From Candidatus Sulfotelmatobacter sp. (GTDB lineage Bacteria; Acidobacteriota; Terriglobia; Terriglobales; Acidobacteriaceae), in the NCBI GenBank assembly GCA_017883425.1, contig JADGNP010000006.1, positions 1-35,597 of the forward strand: a DNA stretch of 35,597 bases, in the 5' to 3' direction. Of the stretch, positions 2,394-21,590 are shown piece after piece (positions within the stretch are counted from its first letter, which is position 1; the number at the start of each line of letters is the position of its first letter). The translations under genes and the position numbers were made by a program. The notes beneath the pieces are model-generated. The model saw nothing but the letters and a program-made list of their open reading frames with translations. It was not told the origin of the DNA and searched no databases.

Positions 2394-2993
2394 GTTCGAC
2401 TGTGGGATCGTTTCTGGGAGAAGCGGAACAAGGAAAATGGAACATTTGCTTCCGAACCCGCAGAGGGATTCCGGTTACACATTGCTGCTGCACCTGAAGG
2501 CGCTGGGGATTGTAAACGTGTTGCCAGAGAAGAGTGATTCCTCTGCACTGGCTGGGTTGCGGCGGAGGGGATGCGAACGCCGACGGAACCATAGTCAGAA
2601 CCGTCGCCAGAATTGCAGGAATACCCGCAAGACCCGCTGATGAAACTGTCGTCCTGGCAGCGCACCTCCGCGTCGAGCGAGTGGAGCCTCAAGACCTGCC
2701 GAAATCAAACATCCAAGGCGGTGGGTAGTGTCTCAGTTTGCCAGTCCTGACCGACAAGACGGTCGAGCTTCGCTCGACCGGACAGCCGAGGGCGGCTGTC
2801 CCCACATGGGTGTTTCCGCGAACTGAGAGACCACGAGGCAATGTAGTTTGACCAACGACGCTGTGCGAGAACTGCCGTCCGTGCGCACGATGGGGATTCA
2901 GTGGTTTGCCGGAAGCGTCGCCGTATCGCATGCCTACGCTCACATTTTCGCCGTTGGCGCTGCCGTCAAGGTGGCATCCGCGGGCCGAAAGAA
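2394..2993. other. Intergenic region after tRNA-Leu, no gene seen
   Basis: About 600 bp without a credible gene. Plus-strand ORFs starting at 2295 and 2311 begin upstream of or inside the tRNA, and the minus-strand ORFs have no supporting start. No integrase fragment or copy of the tRNA 3' end was noticed, so there is no sign of an integrated element. A family A repeat lies at 2760-2808 within a looser inverted repeat: GTCTCAGTT near 2729 and AACTGAGAGAC near 2821. Confidence 0.5.
2760..2808. repeat. Dispersed double-hairpin repeat, family A, copy 2
   Basis: The first hairpin has arms CGGTCGAGC and GCTCGACCG around a TTC loop. The second is the same GACAGCC/GGCTGTC hairpin as in copy 1, followed by CCCACATG. 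The first stem differs in sequence from copy 1 but still pairs fully, so the two arms have changed together. Confidence 0.75.
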
Positions 2994-3033
2994 AAAGGGT
3001 GGCCTGCGCGGCTTGCGCCGCCTGCCACCCTTT
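2987..3033 (-). terminator. Rho-independent terminator of the membrane-protein gene
   Basis: On the minus strand, a long GC-rich stem with outer arms AAAGGGTGGC and GCCACCCTTT is followed by TTTTTCTTTC. It begins about 27 nt past the stop codon at 3060, so it would end the protease/membrane-protein transcript. Confidence 0.85.
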
Positions 3034-3059
3034 CCTTGAATCAAGTCGAGCCGGACCGC

Positions 3060-3788
3060 TTACGCTCCTGCCCCCGCTGCTTTGACCAGAGTCTCGGGGC
3101 GCAGAGTTTCCGCCATCCGTCCAAAGTACAACTGGTAGGAGCGGTGGATTCCGTACATGATCGGGAAGACCGCGAGCGCCAGTCCCCAGCCCAGGTGAGA
3201 GCTGACCGCCTGGACCATGGTGGTGACTCCCGCGCTGACCACGTAGTACGGGAACGAGAGATGCGCCAGGCTCCACCAGATCTGTCCTGCCGCCTTGCCC
3301 TCGCTCACCGCTACGATCGCAGCTACTGGAGCGGTCTGTCCCAGGAACAAGGTCGCTGTCGCCAGCGTTAGTCCCCAGGTGCTGGAACTCCACTGCATGC
3401 CACGCAGCCGGTCGGCATGGAACATCAGGTTGGCCAGGCAACTGGCAAACGCCATCATGCTGACGTTGAACGCCATTTGCTGCGGGTTGAACTTCGCGTT
3501 CTTCCTCGGCCAGCATTGCACCACGGTTGAAACGCAGGTGACCACCACTGCTTCGGCAGCGCTTAGATTCACGACCGCCGTGAGCAGGAATGGCAGATTG
3601 ACCGACATGTTGCCGTTAATTCCCGGCAACTTCACTTTCATCCGCGACGTAACCGCCGCCAGTACCAGAACTGCCAGGGCAAAGTAGGTGTGCAACGCGT
3701 GGCTCACGAATCCCGCATATCCCGCGGTGATGACCGAGGCCAGCATCATTGCGCCGATGAAGGTCTGAATTCGCCGTGTGTTGTTCAT
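3060..3788 (-). CDS. Stand-alone multi-pass membrane sensor-type domain protein
   Basis: A 242-aa integral membrane protein of unknown function with roughly seven hydrophobic segments. It is clearly related to the N-terminal membrane domain of the HD-GYP/GGDEF protein at 10248-12722. Shared motifs are KLPGI-G-MSVN after the second helix, SFPYY-V-A near the sixth, and RSY-LY-GR at the last. It carries no output domain, so it is a free version of that sensor domain. The ORF track starts at 3815. I chose the ATG at 3788 because GGAGAGGAG lies about 8 nt before it and the longer start would overlap that site. The gene starts 35 nt after the protease stop on the same strand, so the two are probably co-transcribed. 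The domain could sense a membrane or redox state, or escort the protease; this is inference. Confidence 0.8.
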   Translation of the reverse strand: MNNTRRIQTFIGAMMLASVITAGYAGFVSHALHTYFALAVLVLAAVTSRMKVKLPGINGNMSVNLPFLLTAVVNLSAAEAVVVTCVSTVVQCWPRKNAKFNPQQMAFNVSMMAFASCLANLMFHADRLRGMQWSSSTWGLTLATATLFLGQTAPVAAIVAVSEGKAAGQIWWSLAHLSFPYYVVSAGVTTMVQAVSSHLGWGLALAVFPIMYGIHRSYQLYFGRMAETLRPETLVKAAGAGA

Positions 3789-3823
3789 GATCTTGTCTCC
3801 TCTCCTTGGATTCACACGGCTAA

Positions 3824-5659
3824 CTATTGCTCATCGTCTCCCGCATCGGAGAACGCACTGTTGGCACTCGAGACCGACGAACCCCAGACCACGCTGGAGG
3901 CCGAGGTGCTCGCGCCCGTGCTCGATCCCCACACCACGCTGAAAGCACTCAGCGTGTTGTCGTTCCAGGGAAGCGAACTGCCCCAGACAACGGAGGTACC
4001 GTTTACGATCGAACTTCCCCAAACCACTGAGGTTCCCCAGACCACCGAAGTACCCCAAACCACGGAGGTTGGGGCAACGGTCGAGTTTCCATATAGCAGC
4101 GAAACCGTGTGGGTCAGAGGGTTATAGACTGCGGTCGGCGAAAGGGCCGATCCGACCGTGGCTGGCGCCAGGTCAGTATTGGCAACCGCGGCCTGTACGT
4201 TCAGCAATCCCGACCCTACCGAGAACAGATCGTAGAAATCGGTGAACGTCCTCGAAAGATGCGGCACAAAAGACGACGTAAAGACCATGCCCGCCATCTT
4301 GTACGCTGTTTTCATCAGCCGCGCCTTCACTTGATCCGGAGTGAGGGTGTCTTGTTCCTGCAGCAACAAAGCTACCGCGCCCGCCACGGCGGGGGTCGCC
4401 ATGCTGGTGCCGCTCAAGCTGAAGTAGTCATTCTTGCCGTCGGTTCCGGTGATCAGTGCCTTCGGATAAGATGCCTCGAGTGACGCCCCCGGGGCCGCCA
4501 GAGAAACGACGGCATTGCCGGGCGCCATGATGTCAGGCTTCACCACGTGATCGTAGGTCGTGGGGCCCTTCGAGCTGTAGCTGGCTTTGGTCTCGGCTGC
4601 GGCGGAGGTTGATCCGTTGCTCTTGGTCGCGCCCACCGTCAGCACGTAAGGATCGTTCCCAGGTGCAGTGACGGTTCCGAAGCCGTTGCTTCCATTTACG
4701 GTCAAGCGGCCATAGTTGCCGGCGGCCACAACCACCACAATTCCGCTCTTCCATGCCGCTTCCACAGCCTGGCACAGAGGATCCTGGGCGTAGCCGACAG
4801 GGATTCCGCGGCCCAGCGACAGGTTGATGACTCGGATGTTATAGGTGTTCTTCAACGCAATGGCCTGCTGAATGGCCGCGATTACGGTACTGTCCGTGCC
4901 CGCGCCGTTCGCGTCCAAGGCCCGAAGATCGACCAGATTGACCCCGGGGGCCACGCCGGCATATTCCCCACCGGAGAGGGAGCCGTTGCCGGCAATGATT
5001 CCGGCCACGTGCGTGCCGTGACCGTACAGGTCGTACTGCGCTCCGCCGGCGTTGCTCGTCGCGGTTCCAGTGAAATCCTGGCGATAGACCACGCGCGAGG
5101 CGCCAGCTGAATCCCACAGATCGGGGTGACTGTCGTTGATGCCGCTATCAATCACGGCTACTCCGACGCCCGCTCCCGTGTATCCGGCGTTCCAGGCTGC
5201 GTCCACGCCCGTAACACCATTCGTCAGATCGTCCATCACGTTGATCGGATGGTCGATGGTGACGGACGCGATTTCTGGATCAGACTCCAAGGCAGCCAGG
5301 GCGCTGACTGGAATCGTGAATGCCGCACCCTGAATCATGTGCAGTCTCGTATGCAGGCGTCCACCCCTGCCTTGCATGGTGGCGTAGCGCGCCGCCGACG
5401 GCATCTGTTTGTATTGCACAATGACCTTCACGGTCTGGCCTTGTGCGGATCCCCGATGAGCTTTCGCCAGAAGTCCCGAGAGTTCGGGAGCGATGCGGAA
5501 GAACCGGCCGCTCGTTTCGCCGGCCGTGGGGTTGGTCCAGCGCTGTCCGAATGCCATCCCCGTTGCCAGGAGTAGCATCAGGCTCAAGCGCTTACCCCAG
5601 GCGGCGCTGTGTCGTTCTCCGCGTCCCGTAGGTTTCGGTGATCTGTTTAGGTGCTCCAT
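3824..5659 (-). CDS. Secreted S8 subtilisin-like serine protease with SVVWG repeats
   Basis: A 611-aa exported peptidase. Residues about 22-38 form a signal peptide ending AFGQ after a long basic start. Residues about 75-140 resemble an inhibitor-I9 propeptide (VKVIVQYKQMP... SVTIDHPI), so the protease is probably made as a zymogen. The catalytic domain spans about 155-495: Asp171 (AVIDSG), His214 (GHGTHVAG), oxyanion Asn313 (AAGNYG) and Ser417 (SGTSMATP) are all present, so it should be active. After about residue 528 the tail carries at least six (S/T)VVWG(T/S)S units, an arrangement I recall from other acidobacterial S8 proteases and whose role is unknown to me. The family is well known; substrate specificity cannot be read from the sequence. 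The membrane protein gene follows on the same strand. Confidence 0.93.
   Translation of the reverse strand: MEHLNRSPKPTGRGERHSAAWGKRLSLMLLLATGMAFGQRWTNPTAGETSGRFFRIAPELSGLLAKAHRGSAQGQTVKVIVQYKQMPSAARYATMQGRGGRLHTRLHMIQGAAFTIPVSALAALESDPEIASVTIDHPINVMDDLTNGVTGVDAAWNAGYTGAGVGVAVIDSGINDSHPDLWDSAGASRVVYRQDFTGTATSNAGGAQYDLYGHGTHVAGIIAGNGSLSGGEYAGVAPGVNLVDLRALDANGAGTDSTVIAAIQQAIALKNTYNIRVINLSLGRGIPVGYAQDPLCQAVEAAWKSGIVVVVAAGNYGRLTVNGSNGFGTVTAPGNDPYVLTVGATKSNGSTSAAAETKASYSSKGPTTYDHVVKPDIMAPGNAVVSLAAPGASLEASYPKALITGTDGKNDYFSLSGTSMATPAVAGAVALLLQEQDTLTPDQVKARLMKTAYKMAGMVFTSSFVPHLSRTFTDFYDLFSVGSGLLNVQAAVANTDLAPATVGSALSPTAVYNPLTHTVSLLYGNSTVAPTSVVWGTSVVWGTSVVWGSSIVNGTSVVWGSSLPWNDNTLSAFSVVWGSSTGASTSASSVVWGSSVSSANSAFSDAGDDEQ
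3981..4074. repeat. 18-bp coding repeat of the SVVWG tract
   Basis: In-frame near-repeats of 18 bp, appearing on the plus strand as variants of CCCCA(A/G)ACCACGGAGGT, encode successive TSVVWG units of the protease. Further, more widely spaced units lie at 3850-3960. Such repeats can change copy number by slippage. Confidence 0.75.
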
Positions 5660-5947: not shown

Positions 5948-6775
5948 CTAGATCGCTGCAGCTTTGCCCGCGGCCAGCCGCTGCGGCATCTTGGGCATCG
6001 CCGCCATGAGGCGCTGCGTGTATTCATGGCGAGGACTGGTCAAGACCTGCTCGGTGGGGCCGCTCTCTACGATCTGCCCTTGGTGCAGGATCGCAATGCG
6101 GTCGCAAATCCCGGCTACCGACGCGAGATCGTGCGAGATGTAGAGAATCGCCATTCCTGAGCTGCGGTTGAGTTCGCGAAACAGCGCCAGAATCTCGGAC
6201 TGCGTAATTACATCGAGGGCGCTCGTAGCCTCATCGGCGATCAACAACGCGGGACGGTGCATCACCGCCATTGCAATCAGCACGCGTTGCGCTTGTCCTA
6301 CGCTCATCTGGGACGGATATTTTTGCAGGAACTCCTCGCTCGAGGGCAAACTCACGCTCTCCAGAGCGGCCCGGATCGCGCTATCGCAATCGGCCCTCGG
6401 TCCTGAAGCATGTGCCCGCCACGCTTCCTTTAACTGGGTGCGGATCTTCAGGGCCGGATTCAGCGACGACAGCGGACTCTGCAGCACGAGCGCGACTTTT
6501 CGTCCGCGCAGCCCGCGCAGCTCGCGCTCGCGCAGGGTCAACAGATCACAACCGTCGAATTCGATCGCGCCCTCGGCCTTCGCCTGCTTGCGATCGAGCA
6601 GGCCCAGAATTGCCATCGCCAGCGTGCTCTTGCCAGATCCACTTTGTCCGACCAGCCCGAGCACCTCGCCCCGCCGGATTTCGAATTTCACGTCGCGCAA
6701 CACAGCCGGCTTCTCCCCATACCACACGGAAACGCGCGCAGCGAGGAGAACGTCGGGTTGCGTGCTGTAGTCCAT
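5948..6775 (-). CDS. Dipeptide/oligopeptide ABC transporter ATPase (DppD/OppD type)
   Basis: A 275-aa cytoplasmic nucleotide-binding subunit that would hydrolyse ATP to drive peptide import. Visible motifs are Walker A GQSGSGKS (about 43-50), the signature MSVGQAQRV, Walker B LLIADEATSALD and the H-loop ISHD. It is shorter than typical DppD/OppD (about 320-340 aa); most of the C-terminal extension that follows the ATPase domain in that family is missing. It is the last gene of the operon, 56 nt after the binding-protein gene, and no partner DppF/OppF is present. The subunit may act as a homodimer or pair with an ATPase encoded elsewhere. The gap before it contains a dispersed repeat (6790-6823). 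The ATG is closely preceded by ACCGAGG; a GAGGAG lies further upstream. Confidence 0.88.
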   Translation of the reverse strand: MDYSTQPDVLLAARVSVWYGEKPAVLRDVKFEIRRGEVLGLVGQSGSGKSTLAMAILGLLDRKQAKAEGAIEFDGCDLLTLRERELRGLRGRKVALVLQSPLSSLNPALKIRTQLKEAWRAHASGPRADCDSAIRAALESVSLPSSEEFLQKYPSQMSVGQAQRVLIAMAVMHRPALLIADEATSALDVITQSEILALFRELNRSSGMAILYISHDLASVAGICDRIAILHQGQIVESGPTEQVLTSPRHEYTQRLMAAMPKMPQRLAAGKAAAI

Positions 6776-6831: not shown

Positions 6832-8565
6832 CTACTTCACGGAAAGCCGGTCCACGTTCCAGTAGGTCTGCGGCACCAGAATCACCGGGCTCGCGCCCTG
6901 CACAGTGGCGGCAACCGCCGACAGGGCATTCCGATTCACCAGATAAATAAACGGCGCCTGCTCCACGGCGATTTCCTGCACGCGGTCGAAACTTTCCTTC
7001 CGCTTCTTCGGATCTGCCGACGAAGCCTGGGCCCGCATCAAGCGGTCAATCTCACCTTCCCACGCGGTCTCCGGGGACTTTTCCTGCGGGTTCCACTGGT
7101 GATTCTCCGACGAACTGAGCCACACGTTCATCTGTTCGTTCGGGTCGAGTCCTACATTGGTCAGGCCCAGCAGGATCGCCTCGTAGTCGAATGTCTGGGT
7201 CATGCGCTCGATCAAAGAAGGGAAGTCGAGCGTCACCACGTTCACTTGAATCCCGATCTTCTGCAGATCTTCTTGAATCATGGTGGCCATGCGTTCGCGA
7301 TATTTATTCCCCGAGTTGGTGATGATCGAAAACACCACCGCATTTCCGTCCTTGTCCTTCAGCGCCCCGTGCTCCAGCCGGAAGCCTTCGCCCTGCAGCG
7401 CCTTCAGCGCGGCGTCCGGCGAACAGGCCTCAGCCTTCAGCCGGGCATTGAACCAGAACTTGTTCGCGGGAGACACCGGACCGACCGCGGGCTGAGCATG
7501 CCCGCGAAACACAACCCGGGCCAGGTCCTGGCGATTGATCGCCCCGGAAATCGCCCGCCGGAAATTCGCCGACCGGAACCAGTTCTTCTTGTATCCCGGC
7601 AGTGGAGCTTTGCCCACTTCGTTGAACCACATCTGCTCGCTGTCGAGCGACGGACCCGCATCATGCACGAGTTGCGGAGAAGTTCCCGCCAGTTTGTCGA
7701 AGTACTCACTGTCCAGCGAATTGATTAAGTCGATTTCCCCGCGTTTGAAGCGCAGCATTTCCACATCACGATTCGGCTGGATATCCAGCTTGATCGAATC
7801 CAGATGCGGCAGCTTCCGTCCCTGCGCGTCCGTCTTCCAGTAATTCGGATTGCGCTTCAGCAGCACCGTCGCCCCGGGCTTGTAATCCGCCACCATGAAC
7901 GGCCCCAGCACCGCCATTTCCTTCTTGGCGGAGTGTGCCGAAAGAATTGCTACCTGGTCGAATTGCCGGTCGAGTCCCGCCACGGGCGCCGGAAACGTAA
8001 TCGAAATCTGAGTCGGCGAAAGAACTTTGGTCTCCACATTGCCCGGCCCCGAGCGGAACGCATCTCCGGTTGGCGAATGCAATGCCGGATCCATCAACTG
8101 CTGCACCGTGTACGCCACATCCTCCGCGGAAAACGGGGTGCCATCGGAGAACGAAACTCCGCTGCGCAGTTTGAACGTGATCTGCTTCCCGTCCTTCGAA
8201 ACCTTCCACGACTGCGCCAGTTCCGGCTCCAAAGCCTGTGTCTGGCGGTTCATGCGCAGCAGCACGCCCCCTGTCAAATACCGGATCGCCACCGACGCAT
8301 CGTCTGCCACCTTCAGGGGATCAAATGTCTTCGGTTCCGAGCGCAGGCAAAACCGCAGTTCGCCCCCACTCTGTGCCGCCGCCGAACTCAGAAACATGCA
8401 AATGCAAACGAAGATTGACGCCGCAAAATGCAACCGCTCTCCAGCCGCGAAGCGGCGGAACGGGAAAGCCCGGCACGGCAGTGCCGGGGAAGAGTGGAGA
8501 GACGGCGCGAGTCCCGCAGGGACGGCACTGGCTGAACGCTTGTTGTGAAACCGGCGGCGCATCAT
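6832..8565 (-). CDS. Peptide ABC transporter substrate-binding protein (family 5), extended N-terminus
   Basis: A 577-aa periplasmic binding protein of the DppA/OppA type that would capture peptides for the two permeases. The mature part starts near GGELRFCLRSEPKTFDPL and contains family features such as WKVSKDGKQITFKLRSGVSFSDGTPFSAEDV. The ORF track starts at 9348, inside the permease genes. I chose 8565 because ATG overlaps the permease stop as ATGA and GAGGAGGT lies about 6 nt upstream. A second ATG follows directly at 8562. The first roughly 45 residues are Arg/Ala/Pro-rich and precede a normal signal-peptide core (FAASIFVCICMFLSSAAAQ). This extension is encoded by a dispersed palindromic repeat (8438-8531), so export may be altered. 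It is the fourth gene of the operon. Confidence 0.88.
   Translation of the reverse strand: MMRRRFHNKRSASAVPAGLAPSLHSSPALPCRAFPFRRFAAGERLHFAASIFVCICMFLSSAAAQSGGELRFCLRSEPKTFDPLKVADDASVAIRYLTGGVLLRMNRQTQALEPELAQSWKVSKDGKQITFKLRSGVSFSDGTPFSAEDVAYTVQQLMDPALHSPTGDAFRSGPGNVETKVLSPTQISITFPAPVAGLDRQFDQVAILSAHSAKKEMAVLGPFMVADYKPGATVLLKRNPNYWKTDAQGRKLPHLDSIKLDIQPNRDVEMLRFKRGEIDLINSLDSEYFDKLAGTSPQLVHDAGPSLDSEQMWFNEVGKAPLPGYKKNWFRSANFRRAISGAINRQDLARVVFRGHAQPAVGPVSPANKFWFNARLKAEACSPDAALKALQGEGFRLEHGALKDKDGNAVVFSIITNSGNKYRERMATMIQEDLQKIGIQVNVVTLDFPSLIERMTQTFDYEAILLGLTNVGLDPNEQMNVWLSSSENHQWNPQEKSPETAWEGEIDRLMRAQASSADPKKRKESFDRVQEIAVEQAPFIYLVNRNALSAVAATVQGASPVILVPQTYWNVDRLSVK
8438..8531. repeat. Family B palindromic repeat inside the binding-protein gene
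   Basis: The element contains the hairpins GCCGC-TTC-GCGGC, CCCGGCAC/GTGCCGGG and GTCCC/GGGAC. Bases 8462-8478 are the exact reverse complement of window bases 1-17. It lies in frame within the signal-peptide region and encodes a sequence like PALPCRAFPFRRFAAG. Exact ends are uncertain. Confidence 0.65.
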
Positions 8566-9371
8566 GCGGCCACCTCCTCTTGCTTCGAAAGCACAAGTTG
8601 AAACGAAGTCACCACTACCACCAGCAACACCAGCGGCACGAACTTCCAGGGCTCTTCGCCCACCGATACCAGCCCTTCCAATTCCTTCAACAGGCTTCCC
8701 CACGAAGGCATCGGCTCGGCCACACCCAGCCCCAGGATCCCCAGGTTCGCCTCGCTCAGGATGAACGCCGGAATCGAAATCCAGAACTGCGCGTACAGCA
8801 CCGGCTTCAGATTCGGCAGCACATGCACCCAGAACAAGCGCACGCCGCGAATGCCGGAAGCTCTCGCCTGTCGTACAAAGTCCGAATCCCGCAGCGATCC
8901 CGCGGTGGCGCACAAAACCCGCGCCGCGCTTGTCCAACCCAACAGCCCCAACAGCGAAAACGTCACCAGCACCGAAACCAATGGCGACACGTTCAAAGGC
9001 ATCACCGCCCGAACCGTGATCAGCAAAAACAGCCACGGCAGCGACAGAAACAGATCCGTCACCGCCATCGCGCCCCGCGCCCACGCGCCGCCCAGATATC
9101 CGGCCAGCCCGCCCACCAGCGCTGCCATCAGCGTGGACAGCAGAGCCGCAGCCGGCGCCAGCAGCAACGAGATCCGCGTCCCATACAGCACGCGCGCAAA
9201 CCGATCCCGCCCAATGTCGTCGGTCCCCAGCCAGTGCTGCCGCGACGGAGCCGCGCCTGCCGCCTCGCGATACTGCTTCGCATAACCCGCCGGAGCCAGC
9301 CAGTTCGCCGCCAGCGACACGCTGACCACGAGCAGCAAGACCGCACACGCCACCCTGCGCCAGATCGTCAT
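8562..9371 (-). CDS. Peptide ABC transporter permease (DppC/OppC type)
   Basis: A 269-aa inner-membrane permease. It has an N-terminal helix (VACAVLLLVVSVSLAANWLAP), the DppC-type motif HWLGTDDIGRDRFARVLYGTRISL, and about five further helices. The ATPase-contact loop carries the EAA-like stretch FVRQARASGIRGVRLFWVHVLPN. The ORF track starts at 9527. I chose the ATG at 9371 because it overlaps the upstream permease stop as ATGA, has AGGAAG upstream, and gives a normal DppC start (MTIWRR). It in turn overlaps the binding-protein start. The three genes are therefore probably translationally coupled. It should form the channel with the DppB-type partner. Confidence 0.9.
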   Translation of the reverse strand: MTIWRRVACAVLLLVVSVSLAANWLAPAGYAKQYREAAGAAPSRQHWLGTDDIGRDRFARVLYGTRISLLLAPAAALLSTLMAALVGGLAGYLGGAWARGAMAVTDLFLSLPWLFLLITVRAVMPLNVSPLVSVLVTFSLLGLLGWTSAARVLCATAGSLRDSDFVRQARASGIRGVRLFWVHVLPNLKPVLYAQFWISIPAFILSEANLGILGLGVAEPMPSWGSLLKELEGLVSVGEEPWKFVPLVLLVVVVTSFQLVLSKQEEVAA

Positions 9372-10234
9372 GCTTCCTGGCCTCGAAGCATATGTCCGAT
9401 TACATCGGCCCCGGAATTGGCCAGCAAGGTTACGATCGTCACCAGGATGGTCAAATTCGTCAGCAAGGGCAGATCGCGTGCCAGCGCCGCCTGCCACGCC
9501 AACTGCCCAACTCCCGCCAGCCCGCACAGCGCTTCCACCGGGATGGCTGCTCCCACCGCGATGCTCACCGACACTCCCGCCACCGCCAGCAACTGCGGCC
9601 CGGCAACCGGAACCACGTGCCAGAACAGAATCCGCAACTCACTCAGCCCCTTGGCCCGCGCCGTAATGATGTGGGGCAGGGAATACGCTTTCGCCAGCAG
9701 ATTGCGCGCATAGCGATACACGCGGGGAAATACGATCAGCCCGATCGCCAGCGCTCCCGGCACATTCCACAGCACCGACAACAGAGCCAGCACCGCCGCC
9801 GGAATACAAAGGAACGTTCCGCTAATCGCCGTCGTCAGCGCGTCGTAAGCCGATACCCGCAGCCAGGCCGCGCTGAGCGCCAACGCCATGGCCACGGCCC
9901 AACTCAGCAACAGTCCGATTCCTACCAGCCGCAGCGTCAGCGGAGCCCGCTCCCGCAACAGCACGCTCACCGGTTGACCCAGAGAAATCGACGTTCCCAG
10001 GTCCCCATGGGCCGCACGTTGTAAGGAATGAAAATAGAAACGGAAGATGTTGTGCTGTTCCAGCCGCGCCTGGCGCAAGGCCTGAACACTGGCTGAATTC
10101 AGATGAGGATCCAGCTGCGCTTCATCCACATCAAAGCCGGGCGCCAGCCGCACCAGCGTGGCCGAGAGCAGTCCTCCCAGCAAGACTGTTGCGACGATGG
10201 CGAGTCCATGCCGCGCAATTTTCCGCCCCAGCAT
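9368..10234 (-). CDS. Peptide ABC transporter permease (DppB/OppB type)
   Basis: A 288-aa inner-membrane permease, partner of the DppC-type protein. It has an N-terminal helix (HGLAIVATVLLGGLLSATLVRLAPG), a periplasmic region with FRFYFHSLQRAAHGDLGTSI (compare the LGxS motif of DppB), then the permease domain. The EAA-like loop is ITARAKGLSELRILFWHVVP. The sequence is more divergent than a textbook DppB and somewhat short. It starts 13 nt after the stop of the HD-GYP/GGDEF gene, and its ribosome-binding site AGGAGGT overlaps that stop codon (TAGGAGGT). This is direct evidence that the signalling enzyme and the transporter belong to one transcript. Confidence 0.88.
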   Translation of the reverse strand: MLGRKIARHGLAIVATVLLGGLLSATLVRLAPGFDVDEAQLDPHLNSASVQALRQARLEQHNIFRFYFHSLQRAAHGDLGTSISLGQPVSVLLRERAPLTLRLVGIGLLLSWAVAMALALSAAWLRVSAYDALTTAISGTFLCIPAAVLALLSVLWNVPGALAIGLIVFPRVYRYARNLLAKAYSLPHIITARAKGLSELRILFWHVVPVAGPQLLAVAGVSVSIAVGAAIPVEALCGLAGVGQLAWQAALARDLPLLTNLTILVTIVTLLANSGADVIGHMLRGQEA

Positions 10235-10247
10235 GGTCCAAGACCTC

Positions 10248-12722
10248 CTATTTCGCGGTGGCTCCGCTGCTCTTCGGGTCCTGCTGGCGCGTGGCAGCGG
10301 CCGCGTGATGGATCTGTTTCATGGAGTACATGCGGCGGTCCGCCTCGGCTAGCAGTCGTTCCACATCGGACCCGTCGTCCGGACAGAATGCCATGCCTAC
10401 GCTCAGCGTGATCACATCCCGTCCGCACACGTGCCGGCCCGATTCGATGGCCGCCTGGTTCAGCCGCTCGGCCTTTTCCTTCGCCGCCTCTGCGGTCATC
10501 CCGGGAGCGGTAATCACAAATTCGTCTCCACCCATGCGCGCCACATAGTCGTATCCGCGGCACACGTCTTTCAAACGAACCGTAAACTCGCGCAGCAGTT
10601 TGTCGCCTTCCAGGTGCCCGAAGGAATCATTGATCGCCTTGAAGCCGTCGATGTCGCACACCAGTACCGCCAGCGACGTTTTCATGCGCCGGCAGCGCGC
10701 CACTTCCTGCGCCAGATGCACAAACAGCGACCGCGCATTCGGCAGGCCGGTCAGATAGTCCGTAGTCGCCGAACTCTCGGCCTGCTGATACTTCAAAGCG
10801 TTTTCCACCGACATGGCGACCTTCGAAGCCACGGCCAGCAAGATTCTCAAATGATCGGGCGTGAAGGCGTCGCGATTCGCCTGATACATAGCCAGCACGC
10901 CAACCACGCCGTTCAGTCCTTCGAGAGGCACGACCAGCGCCGATTGCAGCGTCGTATGCTTTCCGGGGTCGACCACATAGCCCGCTTCCACCTGCGGATT
11001 CCCGTTCACGATGGGCTTGCAGTTCGCCGCCACCCATCCGCACAGTCCTTCGCCTACTCTGATCTTCAACGACGACAGCATGCGGAAGTTCTCGCCGCTG
11101 ATCAGTTCCGGCAGCAGCCAGCCATTCCGGTTCACGAACACGGCAATCGAATCGTAGGGAATCATGCGCCGCAGCCGCATCGACAGCACCGACAATGTCT
11201 CGCTCAAACTCAGAGACACACCCAGATCCTGGCTCAGCTCAAACATCGTCTGCGCCTCTTGCCGTGCGGACGCGATCGATGTCAGGAAGTCCGCGCTATC
11301 GACCGGCCCGTGGGTGGGATCGGTTGGTTCGAATCCCGTTGCCGGCGCCAGCCCTCGCTCCACCTTCACTGTCTTGGAAAGCCCATGGAGACAGGCTGTT
11401 TCCTCCGACATCTGCGCCATCCGCTCCAACTCCACATAACGACTTGCAAGAATCGCGACGACTTGTGGATCGAACCACGTCCCGGCCTTCTCCTGCACTT
11501 TCGCCATCGCCTCGCCCAGGGGCAGCGCGGGCCGGTACTGGCGGTGAGAAGCCAGTGCGTCCAGACAATCCGCTGCGGCCAGGATTCGCGCTCCCATCGG
11601 AATCTCTTGCCCGCTCAATCCCTCCGGATATCCCGTTCCATCCCAGCGCTCGTGATGTGACCGGACAATCGGCGCCACGGGATAGGGAAACGCCACCCGC
11701 TCCAGAATTTCCGCCCCCACCAGTGGATGCACCTTCATCTTCTCGAACTCTTCCGGCGTGAGCTTGCCCGGCTTGTTGATGATTTGTTCCGGCACCGCCA
11801 GTTTCCCGATGTCATGCAACAGGGCTGCCGCCCGCAGCGCCTCGATCTCGCCTTGCGGCAGATTCAACTCGGTGGCCACTGCTACCGCATACGTTCGCAC
11901 GCGCTGCAGATGGGTGTGCGTGGTATGATCCTTGGCCTCGATCGCCAGCGCCAGCGCCTCGATTGTGCGCATGTTGAGCGACGCGATTTGTTCCACGTGC
12001 CGCTTTTCTACCTCGACCCGCTCTTTTTCAGCCTCCAGCCTGCCCAGATACAGCCGGTACGACCGATACACCCAATAGATCAGAGGCAGTACCAGCAGCG
12101 ACGTTTCCCATCCCGCCGACCGGTTCACAATCCCGACGAGTCCTACCGCAGCCGCTCCAACGAGATAATACGGGAACGACCAGAAGTAGCACTCCGACCA
12201 CACCTTGCGGCTCGATTTCCCCTCGGTCAACGCAATTACAACTGAGATCGGCAAAGTGTTGGCGAAGAAGAACACCAGCGCCGCGACCATCAGGAGAATG
12301 GGCTTGTTCGCTCCGAACCTCCCCACCAGCCAGTGATAGCTGAGGTAGGTAAGCGCGCCGGCATTGGCCATCATGCCCACGACGTTGAACAGTACTTTGA
12401 CCGGATCGAGCCGGTTGCGGGCCTGCCACACGCTCTGCACCAGACTCGCCAGGCAGCCAATGAGCAGCGTTTCGGGAAGGCTCAGTTCCAGCACGCCCAG
12501 CAGGATGAACAGGAAATTCACCGACATCGTGCCGTCGATCCCGGGCAGTTGCACCTTCAATCCCGATGCCAGCAGCGCCACCGCCAGATAGCACGCGAAT
12601 CGCATCAGGTCCTGCGACTGCCAATGCAACAAGGCATACCCCAGCACCACCATGCCAAACGACACGGTGATGCCGACGAATGCCTTCGTCTGAATCGACA
12701 ATCCGTCCGTCTCTGCTTTCAT
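10248..12722 (-). CDS. Membrane sensor with HD-GYP, GAF and GGDEF domains
   Basis: An 824-aa membrane protein predicted both to make and to break cyclic-di-GMP. Residues 1-228 form about seven membrane segments homologous to the separate protein at 3060-3788. A short charged linker follows. The HD-GYP phosphodiesterase domain (about 255-430) has H303-D304 in HDIGK, HH at 356-357 and GYP at 364-366, so its metal site looks intact. A GAF domain spans about 485-645. The GGDEF domain (about 652-805) has an intact GGDEF at 731-735 and an I-site R722GYD725 five residues before it, implying product inhibition. Both catalytic units look functional; which dominates cannot be told. It is the first gene of the peptide-transporter operon, linked to dppB by an overlapping ribosome-binding site. 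Confidence 0.93.
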   Translation of the reverse strand: MKAETDGLSIQTKAFVGITVSFGMVVLGYALLHWQSQDLMRFACYLAVALLASGLKVQLPGIDGTMSVNFLFILLGVLELSLPETLLIGCLASLVQSVWQARNRLDPVKVLFNVVGMMANAGALTYLSYHWLVGRFGANKPILLMVAALVFFFANTLPISVVIALTEGKSSRKVWSECYFWSFPYYLVGAAAVGLVGIVNRSAGWETSLLVLPLIYWVYRSYRLYLGRLEAEKERVEVEKRHVEQIASLNMRTIEALALAIEAKDHTTHTHLQRVRTYAVAVATELNLPQGEIEALRAAALLHDIGKLAVPEQIINKPGKLTPEEFEKMKVHPLVGAEILERVAFPYPVAPIVRSHHERWDGTGYPEGLSGQEIPMGARILAAADCLDALASHRQYRPALPLGEAMAKVQEKAGTWFDPQVVAILASRYVELERMAQMSEETACLHGLSKTVKVERGLAPATGFEPTDPTHGPVDSADFLTSIASARQEAQTMFELSQDLGVSLSLSETLSVLSMRLRRMIPYDSIAVFVNRNGWLLPELISGENFRMLSSLKIRVGEGLCGWVAANCKPIVNGNPQVEAGYVVDPGKHTTLQSALVVPLEGLNGVVGVLAMYQANRDAFTPDHLRILLAVASKVAMSVENALKYQQAESSATTDYLTGLPNARSLFVHLAQEVARCRRMKTSLAVLVCDIDGFKAINDSFGHLEGDKLLREFTVRLKDVCRGYDYVARMGGDEFVITAPGMTAEAAKEKAERLNQAAIESGRHVCGRDVITLSVGMAFCPDDGSDVERLLAEADRRMYSMKQIHHAAAATRQQDPKSSGATAK

Positions 12723-17611: not shown

Positions 17612-17897
17612 CCGGGCCATTCTCGGTTCTCTTCTAGCAAGCCGCCTGGAGTGTGCAAGAATTTTCATCCTTGACGGCGCAAACGCCGGAATCCAGAATG
17701 GTTACAACTCCCCAGTCGTGTTTCCCGGGCTCTGCCTGTGAGACACGAGGAACGATTTCCCCAAAGATCTTGATTGCCGATCGGCGTTGGCGATGACGCT
17801 GTCCGGGAGGTTCAACCAGCCGCTTTCGCATCAGCCACCGACCCCTATCGGCGTCTCGATACGAACACACTTACGTTTTCCATCGCCGAGAGGATTT

Positions 17898-20800
17898 ATG
17901 AAAGCACAGACGTGCCGTCTCCTGACCCTAACTGCCGTTTGCAGTATGCTGAGTTTGGCCGCGACGATTTCGGCCTTCGCGCAGGACCTCTCTTCTTCTC
18001 CAACTTCTCTGAACTTTGGAAACGTCTACATCGGCAAGCCTTCGGGAAGCAAGGCGCTGACCATCACCAACATCTCGGGCGGTGGCATTACTATTACCAA
18101 CATCGGTTTTGACTGCGCCGGCTACGGAATCTCCGCGGGAGTGGCGCCATTTTCCTTCGGCGCGACCCAGACTATTACGCATTATTCGATCTTCCTGAAT
18201 CCCACCGCCGCGCAGACCTATAGCTGCAACTTCGTCATGACCATGAATGACGGCACCTTCGTGGATGTGCCAATCACCGGTGTCGGAATCGTGAGCACAG
18301 GGCTGGCCAGCGTGAATGTGTCATCGATGAGCTTTCCGAACCAGAAGGTCGGAACCACGAGCGCCGGGCAAACGGTTACGATCACCAACAGTGGCTCGAG
18401 CAGCGTAGCGTTAACCGGCATCACGCTGTCGCCACCCAGTTTCACGACGAGTGCCGTGACGCTTCCATACACCCTCCATGCGGGTTCCACCCTGCCGATT
18501 TCGGTGTTCTATACCCCAAGTGAAGTGACGTCAGAAACCGGAGCGCTGGATCTGACCTACACGCAAGTTGTCGATAACGGTGTGACGCTCACGGGCAATG
18601 GAATTGCGCCTACTTCGTTGGTAATCTCGACTTCGTCAACGCTGCCGCAGGCCACACAGAGTGCCGTCTACCAAACCACTCTCGCCGCCAGCGGCGGTAC
18701 AGGCGGGTATACCTGGGCCTTGGCATCGGGTTCGACGTTGCCTTTGGGATTGACTCTGTCGAGTTCCGGTGTAATCAGCGGCACGGTCGCGTCTACCGTC
18801 GCCACAGGAAATTACACTTTCACCGTGAAAGCGACGGATACAAGCTCTGGTTCCACCGCCAGTTCCGCGATGTCTATCGGCGTGTTTGCCAACCTCGCGG
18901 ACAACTGCGCCGACATTTCCTTCGACGTCCCCAACACCACGACGCCGATGACTGCGTTAACCGATCTTGGCACGGGAACCTATCAGGGGTCGGAAGGCGG
19001 GTTGTATCCCAATGGCAGCAACGTGCGGCCGACGTCTCATGACGCGGACGGCGTCGGCTTCGCGCGAGGGATTGTGCCTCTCGATGCCAACGGCAACTAT
19101 AGTCCGACCGGAAAGTACGTCATGATGGCCATCGGCGAATCGACGGCGCAGAACGAGTTCGGCCGGTTCCTGCCCATCGCCAACGCCGATCCGGCGAAGA
19201 ATCCCTATTTGGTGATAGTCAATGGCGCGCAAGGTGGCGCCACACCTTTCAACTTCACCAGCCCCAGTTCGGTGTATTGGTCCACGGTGATGAACAATTA
19301 CCTGCCACAGAATGGCGTGACCGCGAACCAGGTCGTCGTCATCTGGATGGAAGACACCGATGGAATCGCGTCCGGAACTTTTCCGAGCGACATCACCGTG
19401 CTTCAGTCTCAGTACGAGACCATGATGCAGACCATGCACACGCTGTTCCCGAACCTGAAGATGGTTTACTTCTCGTCGCGAGTGTACGGCGGATATTCCA
19501 ATGGCGTCGGGAATCCTGACAATCCTGAACCGTACGCCTATGAAGTTGGGTTCGCCGTGAAGTGGGCGATTCAGGACCAGATCAACGGCAATGCCAATTT
19601 GAATTACAACCCGGCCTTGGGAGCGGTAGTAGCGCCCTGGATGTCGTGGGGACCGTACTACTGGTCGAACGGCATGCTGGGCCGGAACGATGGATTGGAA
19701 TGGGACTGCGCGGACTTCTCCGCCGACGGAACGCATCCCTCCACCCAGTACGGGCAGTTGAAGGTCGCAACTTCGTTGCTCCAATTCCTCAAGACGGACG
19801 ATACGACGACACCGTGGTATCTGGCGCAGGGGGCCGTTCTTTCCCCGACCGGCGGTAACAATCAGACTGGCATTACCGGCACCACTCTGCCCACTGCCTT
19901 AACTGTACTGGCCTCGAATGGCGGGACTGCTGTTTCTGGCGTGAGTGTGAGCTTCAGCGACGGCGGCGCGAACGGGACGTTTACTCCAAACCCAGCCGTC
20001 ACCAACAGCAGCGGTATTGCGTCGACCAGTTACAAGCTCGGCGCCCCCGGAACCATCACAGTCACCGCCAGCAGTTCTGGTTATAATTCCGCGACCTTCA
20101 CAGAGACGTCTACGGCCGCGGTCAAGACTCTCGCCGTGAACGGCGGTAATAATCAGACTGGCGCTACGGGCAGCACGCTTCCGACCGCTCTGACTGTATT
20201 GGCCACGAACAACGGGACCGCCGTCTCCGGCGTGAGCGTATCGTTCACCGACGGCTCGACCGGGACTTTCACTCCCAATCCGGCAATCACGAACAGCAGC
20301 GGTATCGCATCGACCAGTTACAAATTGCCCACCGCGCCGGGGACTTATACCGTCACCGCCAGTAGTTCGGGCTATACGTCAACAACCTTCACTGAGACCG
20401 CCACTGCCACAACGGGGAAGCTTCTCACCGTGACCGGCGGCAACAACCAGACGGGTCCAGCGGGTACCACGCTGCCGACGGCATTGACCGTGGAGGCCAC
20501 GAATAACGGAAGCGCCGTCTCTGGCGTTAGCGTGACCTTCAAAGACAACAAAGCGGGCGGTACTTTCAATCCGGGCACCGCGGTTACGAACAGTAGCGGT
20601 ATCGCGTCGACCATCTACACGTTGCCGAAGTCGGCCAAGTCGATCACCGTCACCGCTGGCGCTGTCGGCTACACCTCGACAACCTTTAAAGAGACTTCCA
20701 CCGTAACCAAGACTCTTGCAGTAAACGGCGGCAACAATCAGACAGGCGTGGCCGGCACAACGCTGCCCACGGCGTTGACTGTATTGGCCACCAACAACGG

Positions 20801-21590
20801 CACCGCCGTTTTCGGTGTGAGCGTGTCGTTCACTGATGGCGCAGGCGGGACTTTCAGTCCAAACCCGGCCGTCAGCAACAGCAGCGGTATCGCGTCGACG
20901 AGCTACACTTTGCCGGCTACAGCCGGGACCTACACCGTCACTGCCAGCAGTACTGGCTACTCGTCGGCCACTTTCACAGAGACTGCAACCACTTCTGTGG
21001 CTGTTACTCAGCTGCAACTTGTTTCGGGCGGGAAACAGACCGGAACGGTTGGGACGACTCTGCCGAACCCGATTGTGATCAAGGCCAAGAACTCTTCCGG
21101 CGGGATCGTGGTGGGCGCTTCCATCAACTTCAGCGATGGTGTGGGTGGCACGTTCTCGCCGAATCCGGCACTCACTGGTTCGAACGGGGAAGCCAGCACT
21201 TCCTACACGCTTCCCACCAAGGCTCAGAGCCTTGTGGTGACCGCATCCGATGGGAGCGTGAAAACCACTGCTAGCGAGGCATCCGTTGCCGCTGCAGCCT
21301 CCGCGATTGCGATTGTGTCGGGGAATAACCAGTCGGCCAATCCCAATACCTTGCTTCCCAGCATGCTCATCGTGTCCGTGACCGATAAATACGGCAATGC
21401 CGTTTCGGGTTATACGGTGACGTTTACCGACAACGGCGCGGGAGGTACGTTCTCCACGACCACGCCCATAACCAATTCCTTCGGCCAGGCGTCGGTGAGC
21501 TACACCACCGGTTCGACCGCAGGAACAGTGACGATCACGGCGGGGTCGACGCAGACTGGCAGTGTCAATTTCACCGAGACGGTCATTTGA
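17898..21590 (+). CDS. Secreted SGNH-hydrolase-like protein with Ig-type domains
   Basis: A 1230-aa exported protein. A signal peptide (about 1-29, LLTLTAVCSMLSLAATISAFAQ) is followed by two HYDIN/choice-of-anchor-D type Ig folds (about 30-235) and a putative-Ig domain (about 238-332). Residues about 334-637 resemble an SGNH esterase: a GES nucleophile block near 411 (MAIGESTAQNEF), a middle NGAQGG block and a DGTHPS block near 608 that would supply Asp/His. No clear GxND block is seen, so activity is likely but not certain. From about 648 to the end there are six Big_1-like repeats of about 95 residues. The ORF track starts at 17787. I chose the ATG at 17898, which has GAGAGGA upstream and opens directly on the signal peptide. 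Substrate unknown; a surface polysaccharide esterase is one option. Confidence 0.8.
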   Translation: MKAQTCRLLTLTAVCSMLSLAATISAFAQDLSSSPTSLNFGNVYIGKPSGSKALTITNISGGGITITNIGFDCAGYGISAGVAPFSFGATQTITHYSIFLNPTAAQTYSCNFVMTMNDGTFVDVPITGVGIVSTGLASVNVSSMSFPNQKVGTTSAGQTVTITNSGSSSVALTGITLSPPSFTTSAVTLPYTLHAGSTLPISVFYTPSEVTSETGALDLTYTQVVDNGVTLTGNGIAPTSLVISTSSTLPQATQSAVYQTTLAASGGTGGYTWALASGSTLPLGLTLSSSGVISGTVASTVATGNYTFTVKATDTSSGSTASSAMSIGVFANLADNCADISFDVPNTTTPMTALTDLGTGTYQGSEGGLYPNGSNVRPTSHDADGVGFARGIVPLDANGNYSPTGKYVMMAIGESTAQNEFGRFLPIANADPAKNPYLVIVNGAQGGATPFNFTSPSSVYWSTVMNNYLPQNGVTANQVVVIWMEDTDGIASGTFPSDITVLQSQYETMMQTMHTLFPNLKMVYFSSRVYGGYSNGVGNPDNPEPYAYEVGFAVKWAIQDQINGNANLNYNPALGAVVAPWMSWGPYYWSNGMLGRNDGLEWDCADFSADGTHPSTQYGQLKVATSLLQFLKTDDTTTPWYLAQGAVLSPTGGNNQTGITGTTLPTALTVLASNGGTAVSGVSVSFSDGGANGTFTPNPAVTNSSGIASTSYKLGAPGTITVTASSSGYNSATFTETSTAAVKTLAVNGGNNQTGATGSTLPTALTVLATNNGTAVSGVSVSFTDGSTGTFTPNPAITNSSGIASTSYKLPTAPGTYTVTASSSGYTSTTFTETATATTGKLLTVTGGNNQTGPAGTTLPTALTVEATNNGSAVSGVSVTFKDNKAGGTFNPGTAVTNSSGIASTIYTLPKSAKSITVTAGAVGYTSTTFKETSTVTKTLAVNGGNNQTGVAGTTLPTALTVLATNNGTAVFGVSVSFTDGAGGTFSPNPAVSNSSGIASTSYTLPATAGTYTVTASSTGYSSATFTETATTSVAVTQLQLVSGGKQTGTVGTTLPNPIVIKAKNSSGGIVVGASINFSDGVGGTFSPNPALTGSNGEASTSYTLPTKAQSLVVTASDGSVKTTASEASVAAAASAIAIVSGNNQSANPNTLLPSMLIVSVTDKYGNAVSGYTVTFTDNGAGGTFSTTTPITNSFGQASVSYTTGSTAGTVTITAGSTQTGSVNFTETVI
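19851..21590. repeat. Six tandem Big_1-like coding repeats
   Basis: Six in-frame units of about 285-290 bp. The first four are nearly alike, each starting GGNNQTG..GTTLPTALTV and containing NSSGIAST. The last two are divergent. The gradient suggests recent internal duplication of the first units. They probably extend the enzyme-like domain away from the cell. Confidence 0.8.

Follow-up and report, generated by a model that had tools for sequence, protein, structure and literature searches.

A repeat-tailed subtilase and its MASE9-like membrane partners suggest an undescribed signalling module in acidobacteria and other phyla

Peptide signalling of the Rap-Phr/RRNPPA type combines tandem short peptide copies, secreted proteases (including subtilases), an Opp permease and peptide-receptor specificity; in Bacillus phages (Bacillota), secreted proteases mature tandem pheromone propeptides, which are then taken up by Opp (PMC11343458). 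In LapD-LapG, a secreted protease and a c-di-GMP protein of the inner membrane are coupled genetically: LapG, a cysteine protease, is under the inside-out control of LapD, the c-di-GMP receptor (PMC3032545, PMC4359373). On the receptor side, 5TMR kinases have already established the S-component fold as a receptor fold, and 5TMR/LytS-type receptors use it as membrane input for modular GGDEF, EAL and HK outputs (PMC11109136). MASE domains are membrane-associated sensors that precede c-di-GMP enzymes, and a review of c-di-GMP signalling counts MASE1 among sensors for which no purpose can be discerned (PMC8846402).

The window (the whole stretch of DNA analysed, 35,597 nt, from Candidatus Sulfotelmatobacter sp.) carries on its minus strand a seven-gene operon in the order S-OppB-OppC-OppA-OppD-P-M. 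The earlier note had read its last two genes, P and M, as a two-gene unit; the pairing stands, but the unit is larger, since P and M close an operon that also holds Opp and S. The features, including a separate regulator R, are:

2987–3034, minus strand: terminator hairpin and U-run downstream of M
3060–3815, minus strand: ORF of M, a free-standing MASE9-like membrane protein, of 242 aa if, as is probable, translation begins at ATG 3788
3797–3807, minus strand: strong Shine-Dalgarno sequence of M, AAGGAGAGGAG, ahead of ATG 3788
3824–5659, minus strand: P, an S8 pro-subtilisin of 611 aa with I9-like propeptide, catalytic domain and repeat tail
3878–4066, minus strand: repeat tail of P (residues 532–594), six S-V-V-W-G-[TS] units and degenerate ones; predicted disordered
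5948–6775, minus strand: OppD-type ABC ATPase
6832–8565, minus strand: OppA-type peptide-binding protein (SBP_bac_5); the listed ORF extends to 9348
8562–9527, minus strand: OppC permease ORF (BPD_transp_1); the true start is probably near 9370
9368–10234, minus strand: OppB permease (BPD_transp_1)
10248–12722, minus strand: S, MASE9-like domain, HD-GYP, GAF and GGDEF, 824 aa
15794–17611, plus strand: R, a PAS, sigma54 activator, Fis HTH and PilZ regulator

The locus shares the four Rap-Phr/RRNPPA elements named above, and tandem pheromone propeptides offer, by analogy, a partial precedent for a model of the P tail. Unlike in Rap-Phr/RRNPPA, the protease itself carries the repeats, an S-component-like membrane domain takes the place of the cytoplasmic TPR protein as putative receptor, the output is c-di-GMP or a kinase, and the hosts are acidobacteria and members of other phyla. 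Since no cytoplasmic TPR receptor gene was found among the recurrent neighbours of P loci, we do not class the module as RRNPPA. LapD-LapG is the nearest protease–c-di-GMP pair, but protease family and sensor architecture differ: P is an S8 protease with repeats and not a transglutaminase-like cysteine protease, whereas S is a MASE9-like–HD-GYP–GAF–GGDEF protein with catalytic motifs and not a LapD GGDEF-EAL receptor, and the flow of information is probably outside-in. Moreover, unlike in LapD-LapG, no adhesin substrate is recurrent at P loci. In contrast to the 5TMR/LytS-type receptors (a term search of PMC11109136 gave no mention of MASE), the MASE9-like family here has a protease as genomic partner, and the tail of that protease may be its ligand; in contrast to the MASE domains reviewed in PMC8846402, the family comes with a proposed candidate ligand source. 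In the open-access literature we found no description of a P-M-S module, and nothing relevant on VVWG repeats, MASE9, subtilases with peptide pheromones or acidobacterial subtilisins with HD-GYP. The P-M-S arrangement points to a signalling system not described before, with the tail as its possible signal. Our main reading, held at about even odds (probability roughly 0.5), is that P, M and S work together as a single signalling module, in which the tail, intact or as peptides, acts on the MASE domain as its ligand and so feeds c-di-GMP or kinase outputs.

By Pfam, SBP_bac_5, both BPD permeases and the ATPase stand in the one operon, which thus encodes a peptide ABC importer of Opp/Dpp type. 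An 838-aa OppA ORF was rejected as a genuine OppC-OppA fusion, its first ~260 codons being out of frame. The widest gap between S and M, 288 nt, lies just before P, so that P and M may also have a promoter of their own. M could alternatively start at GTG 3815, 8 nt past P, but ATG 3788 with its Shine-Dalgarno sequence is the more likely start, in agreement with the earlier description of a membrane protein 35 nt after the protease with its own ribosome-binding site. The terminator described there after M was also recovered by folding, as a hairpin with a U-run (−32.2 kcal/mol, z=−2.7); it went unlisted in a simple terminator scan. Two more copies of P occur in the window's own genome, with 54% and 49% identity, and each of them stands divergently next to a further S-type gene.

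P had been described as an exported S8 protease with an intact triad and a VVWG tract, and this characterization holds. It matches Pfam Peptidase_S8 (PF00082) with E=2.6e-56, and relatives conserve its triad (D171/H214/S419) and oxyanion N315 with little or no variation. The AlphaFold model places an I9-type propeptide at about residues 58–142, ahead of a subtilisin-fold catalytic domain, and Foldseek matches ProN-Tk-SP and pro-subtilisin E; export is suggested by an N-terminal hydrophobic stretch. The tail contains six exact hhWG units, SVVWGT twice and SVVWGS four times, and is predicted to be disordered (pLDDT <50 for residues 524–611). Most Terriglobia P tails (window 3827–3845, L112, L113) end in a conserved G-[DE]-[NQKHE], as GEN, GDN, GEQ or GEK, possibly a sorting or processing signal. 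One locus (L115, G005:C29:2637-3864) is a broken P copy with internal stops and remnants of WG repeats, a pseudogene whose genome also holds intact copies.

The WG tract is no chance pattern: hexaperiodic WG arrays in 30 genomes occur in P tails, save for a few low-complexity G/W or unrelated stretches, and none were found in eight relatives lacking P. Across 95 proteins there are about 50 different consensus units, and units within one protein match at 0.77 of variable positions, compared to 0.36 when shuffled among proteins. At the nucleotide level, in 94 proteins, units of one protein mismatch at 0.59 of four-fold sites, where random third bases would give 0.65; pS is 0.64 and pN 0.14. Silent sites are thus near-random, whereas amino acids are nearly identical within a protein and differ between loci; judged from these sequences, every repeat copy is under selection toward a locus-specific sequence. 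The near-random silent sites also led us to reject recent array expansion as the source of identical repeats in most proteins. The arrays of a few distant proteins (L222, L188, L213) are likely recent expansions. A beta-solenoid or other folded repeat was rejected as well, because the tail is predicted to be disordered and the repeat spacing is irregular.

The membrane protein M and the membrane domain at the N-terminus of S, encoded 7 kb upstream, are homologues (35% identity, E=3e-36). S carries HD, GYP, RGYD-x5-GGDEF and I-site motifs and matches Pfam HD_5 and GGDEF. Against the Pfam MASE9 (PF20972) cut-off of 24.3 bits, M gives no match and the window S scores 20.5 bits, whereas homologues exceed it (28.6 bits for M of L073, 46.1 for S of L176 and 37.2 for S of L192); hence the label MASE9-like. 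The AlphaFold model of M (pLDDT 89.6) has only short extramembrane loops. All top 15 PDB matches of this model are ECF S-components, among them RibU (prob 1.0, TM 0.61 by target length), at a Foldseek E of 0.0095, so that the likeness is one of fold only; a sequence search of PDB returned no relatives of the MASE domain. We conclude that M is predicted to have the ECF S-component fold.

The idea that P works with a membrane sensor-like protein draws its support from conserved linkage. In 22 related genomes, a MASE gene lies within 4 kb of 33 of the 42 tailed S8 proteases and of none of the 36 other S8 proteases (p=7e-14). A count over 100 genomes of the same family gave 28 with a P-type protease and 45 with the MASE domain; every P genome has MASE (28/28), against 17/72 of the others (p=2e-13). 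M is confined to genomes encoding S (22/22, namely 21 clear cases and one S fragment). The survey of neighbours of tailed S8 proteases proposed in the earlier note, here restricted to loci with 3 kb flanks, located a MASE gene within 3 kb at 26 of 34 family loci and at 21 of 28 independent GTDB Acidobacteriota loci, with no such neighbour at the other well-flanked loci (8/34 and 7/28), and the pairing crosses phyla. The earlier note would have given up the idea had no relative kept the pairing, which is clearly not the case. M always lies directly downstream of P on the same strand (23/23), with short gaps; S is mostly either divergent upstream or directly downstream of P. A sigma54 activator, often with PilZ, is recurrent near the module, and relatives of R adjoin P or S at many loci; distant loci L222 and L223 also have a sigma54 activator, there without a PilZ match. 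Sigma54 promoters 5′ of P that would tie in R were not accepted, being found in 4 of 101 upstream regions, against 0.9% in shuffles, at scattered positions. Past the sigma54 regulator, window positions 17787–21590 encode a probable surface protein of 1267 aa, in which choice-of-anchor D and Big_1 domains are found.

Genes for Opp lie within 8 kb of P at 18/34 family loci, which is in keeping with the signalling reading and would also fit a nutritional module: P would digest extracellular protein, Opp would import the peptides, S and M would sense peptides or nutrients and adjust c-di-GMP, and the tail would serve surface or matrix attachment only. By sequence and modelled fold P does look like an ordinary active-type pro-subtilisin, and S-component folds elsewhere bind nutrients. 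However, many P-M loci have no Opp, the other S8 proteases of the same genomes are not found near MASE, and the copy-by-copy conservation of repeats, their locus-specific variants and their correlation with MASE over the catalytic domain (see below) would be left unexplained. We regard this explanation as unlikely.

In close relatives, tail and P subfamily are inseparable, so the linkage there could follow the catalytic domain. A scan of GTDB gave matches from several classes of Acidobacteriota, as well as from Armatimonadota, Chloroflexota and gammaproteobacteria. For distant genomes, S8 genes were chosen by PF00082 rank alone, and a MASE gene was found within 3 kb of 15/38 tailed and 1/27 untailed ones (p=0.001); the sole "untailed" case, L214, ends in weak ILWGTS repeats. 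An earlier, smaller comparison of distant genomes (7/15 tailed vs 0/4) was not significant. Repeat-tailed S8 proteases stand beside MASE sensors also in Chloroflexota, Armatimonadota and other acidobacterial classes. The MASE domain is fused there to HD-GYP (L176, L182, L206, L214, L222), HD-GYP-GGDEF (L215), GGDEF-EAL (L179) or HK-REC (L177, L181, L192, L193); the GGDEF-EAL partner at L187 has a membrane domain in which the MASE profile gave no match. Gammaproteobacterial tailed S8 proteases (L189–L191, L210, L211) adjoin Reg_prop beta-propeller GGDEF proteins and not MASE sensors, and at L190 also a REC-GGDEF-EAL protein. Armatimonadota paralogues L208 and L209 have WG-type tails without sensor neighbours, and S8 proteases L262 and L267 of an Anaerolineae genome carry perfect NSVSWNSVSWN tails without a MASE neighbour. 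Several distant S8 proteases (L231, L239, L261, L271, L212), mostly gammaproteobacterial and repeat-tailed, share a conserved terminal N-x-W-V-x-x-E.

Tails are kept across these lineages as their chemistry shifts (SVVWGS, DNIVWGT, TLIWGD, GVVWSD, YLWADG, GVIIGD, GIMVSD, SWETV, NSVSWN), with 0 to >10 residues between repeats. This bears on the proposal that the tail is structural or adhesive, forming short beta or amyloid-like stacks or a secretion or sorting tag, and that the MASE linkage reflects co-regulation of biofilm functions by c-di-GMP. The repeats are hydrophobic and rich in Trp-Gly, the Terriglobia C-terminus is conserved, and c-di-GMP often controls surface proteins. Nevertheless, such a role is hard to reconcile with the variable spacing, with a complete change of chemistry between lineages (WG, WSDG, ASD, IGD, SWN) and with predicted disorder, and co-regulation does not predict a single receptor domain with varying outputs; we consider it very unlikely.

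Repeat type was also compared with the receptor. With the catalytic domain removed, repeat-unit distance correlates with MASE distance in both M pairs (partial r 0.33, p=0.0065, n=30) and S pairs (0.27, p<0.001, n=38), whereas with MASE removed its correlation with catalytic-domain distance is about 0 (−0.03, 0.05). For M and S pairs pooled, the two partial correlations are equal (0.13 each). Within S, the correlation is 0.17 (p=0.006) for MASE and 0.12 (p=0.05) for HD-GYP, a small margin. These are Mantel tests in which phylogenetic structure remains, so their significance is overstated; they are no more than suggestive of repeat type following MASE and not the body of the protease. The correlation speaks against the repeats being a mere substrate or inhibitor of P. 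In an exploratory column scan, residue 120 of M, beside the invariant F116-N117, ranked first for association with the repeat in both M and S pairs, two largely separate sets; in the predicted topology it maps mid-membrane, away from the outer pocket.

The repeat–MASE correlation, the position of M immediately 3′ of P with short gaps, and the multivalent linear motif within a predicted disordered tail would also suit a tethered reporter, in which the uncut tail sits on M or S, holding P at the membrane or silencing the receptor, and tail proteolysis reports on the environment. This is the alternative closest to the earlier note's idea that M anchors or restrains the protease. That role of M is disfavoured by the short loops, by the predicted S-component fold of ligand-binding type and by the use of the same domain mostly as an HD-GYP/GGDEF or kinase input. 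For a tethered reporter, mature P would need to remain periplasmic, yet no membrane anchor is seen in P, and a single binding site has no obvious need for 6–17 selected copies. We therefore find it quite unlikely.

We prefer the reading of the tail as a MASE ligand. The module as such rests on gene linkage, conservation, a constant receptor domain with swapped outputs and selection on each repeat copy; from these we infer tail–MASE binding, peptide release, the direction of c-di-GMP change and the roles of M, Opp and R, as follows. P would be exported, mature itself through its I9-like propeptide and display or release short hydrophobic Trp-containing repeats from a tail predicted to be disordered. 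Whether left in place or freed as peptides by P or another protease, these repeats would bind the MASE domain from outside the cell and shift the HD-GYP/GGDEF activity of S, changing c-di-GMP, or in other lineages drive a histidine kinase. M, a receptor domain without output, would most likely be a partner, decoy or attenuator of S; Opp may import or clear repeat peptides, and the PilZ/sigma54 regulator R may read c-di-GMP. A bolder version, possible but somewhat doubtful, is a form of peptide signalling that spans phyla, in which a subtilase bears its own tandem pheromone tail, a receptor of S-component fold has a swappable c-di-GMP or histidine-kinase output, and M is a receptor-only modulator.

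In this module the MASE9-like domain gains a concrete candidate ligand, encoded close by in genomes of several phyla. Should the tail turn out not to be that ligand, what has been delimited is still a conserved gene module, marked by its characteristic repeats and by a receptor whose outputs can be exchanged. To our knowledge, no peptide signalling has been described in soil acidobacteria. If the tail is the signal, these bacteria would possess a self-contained protease–pheromone–receptor system, and extracellular proteolysis would be tied to c-di-GMP decisions.
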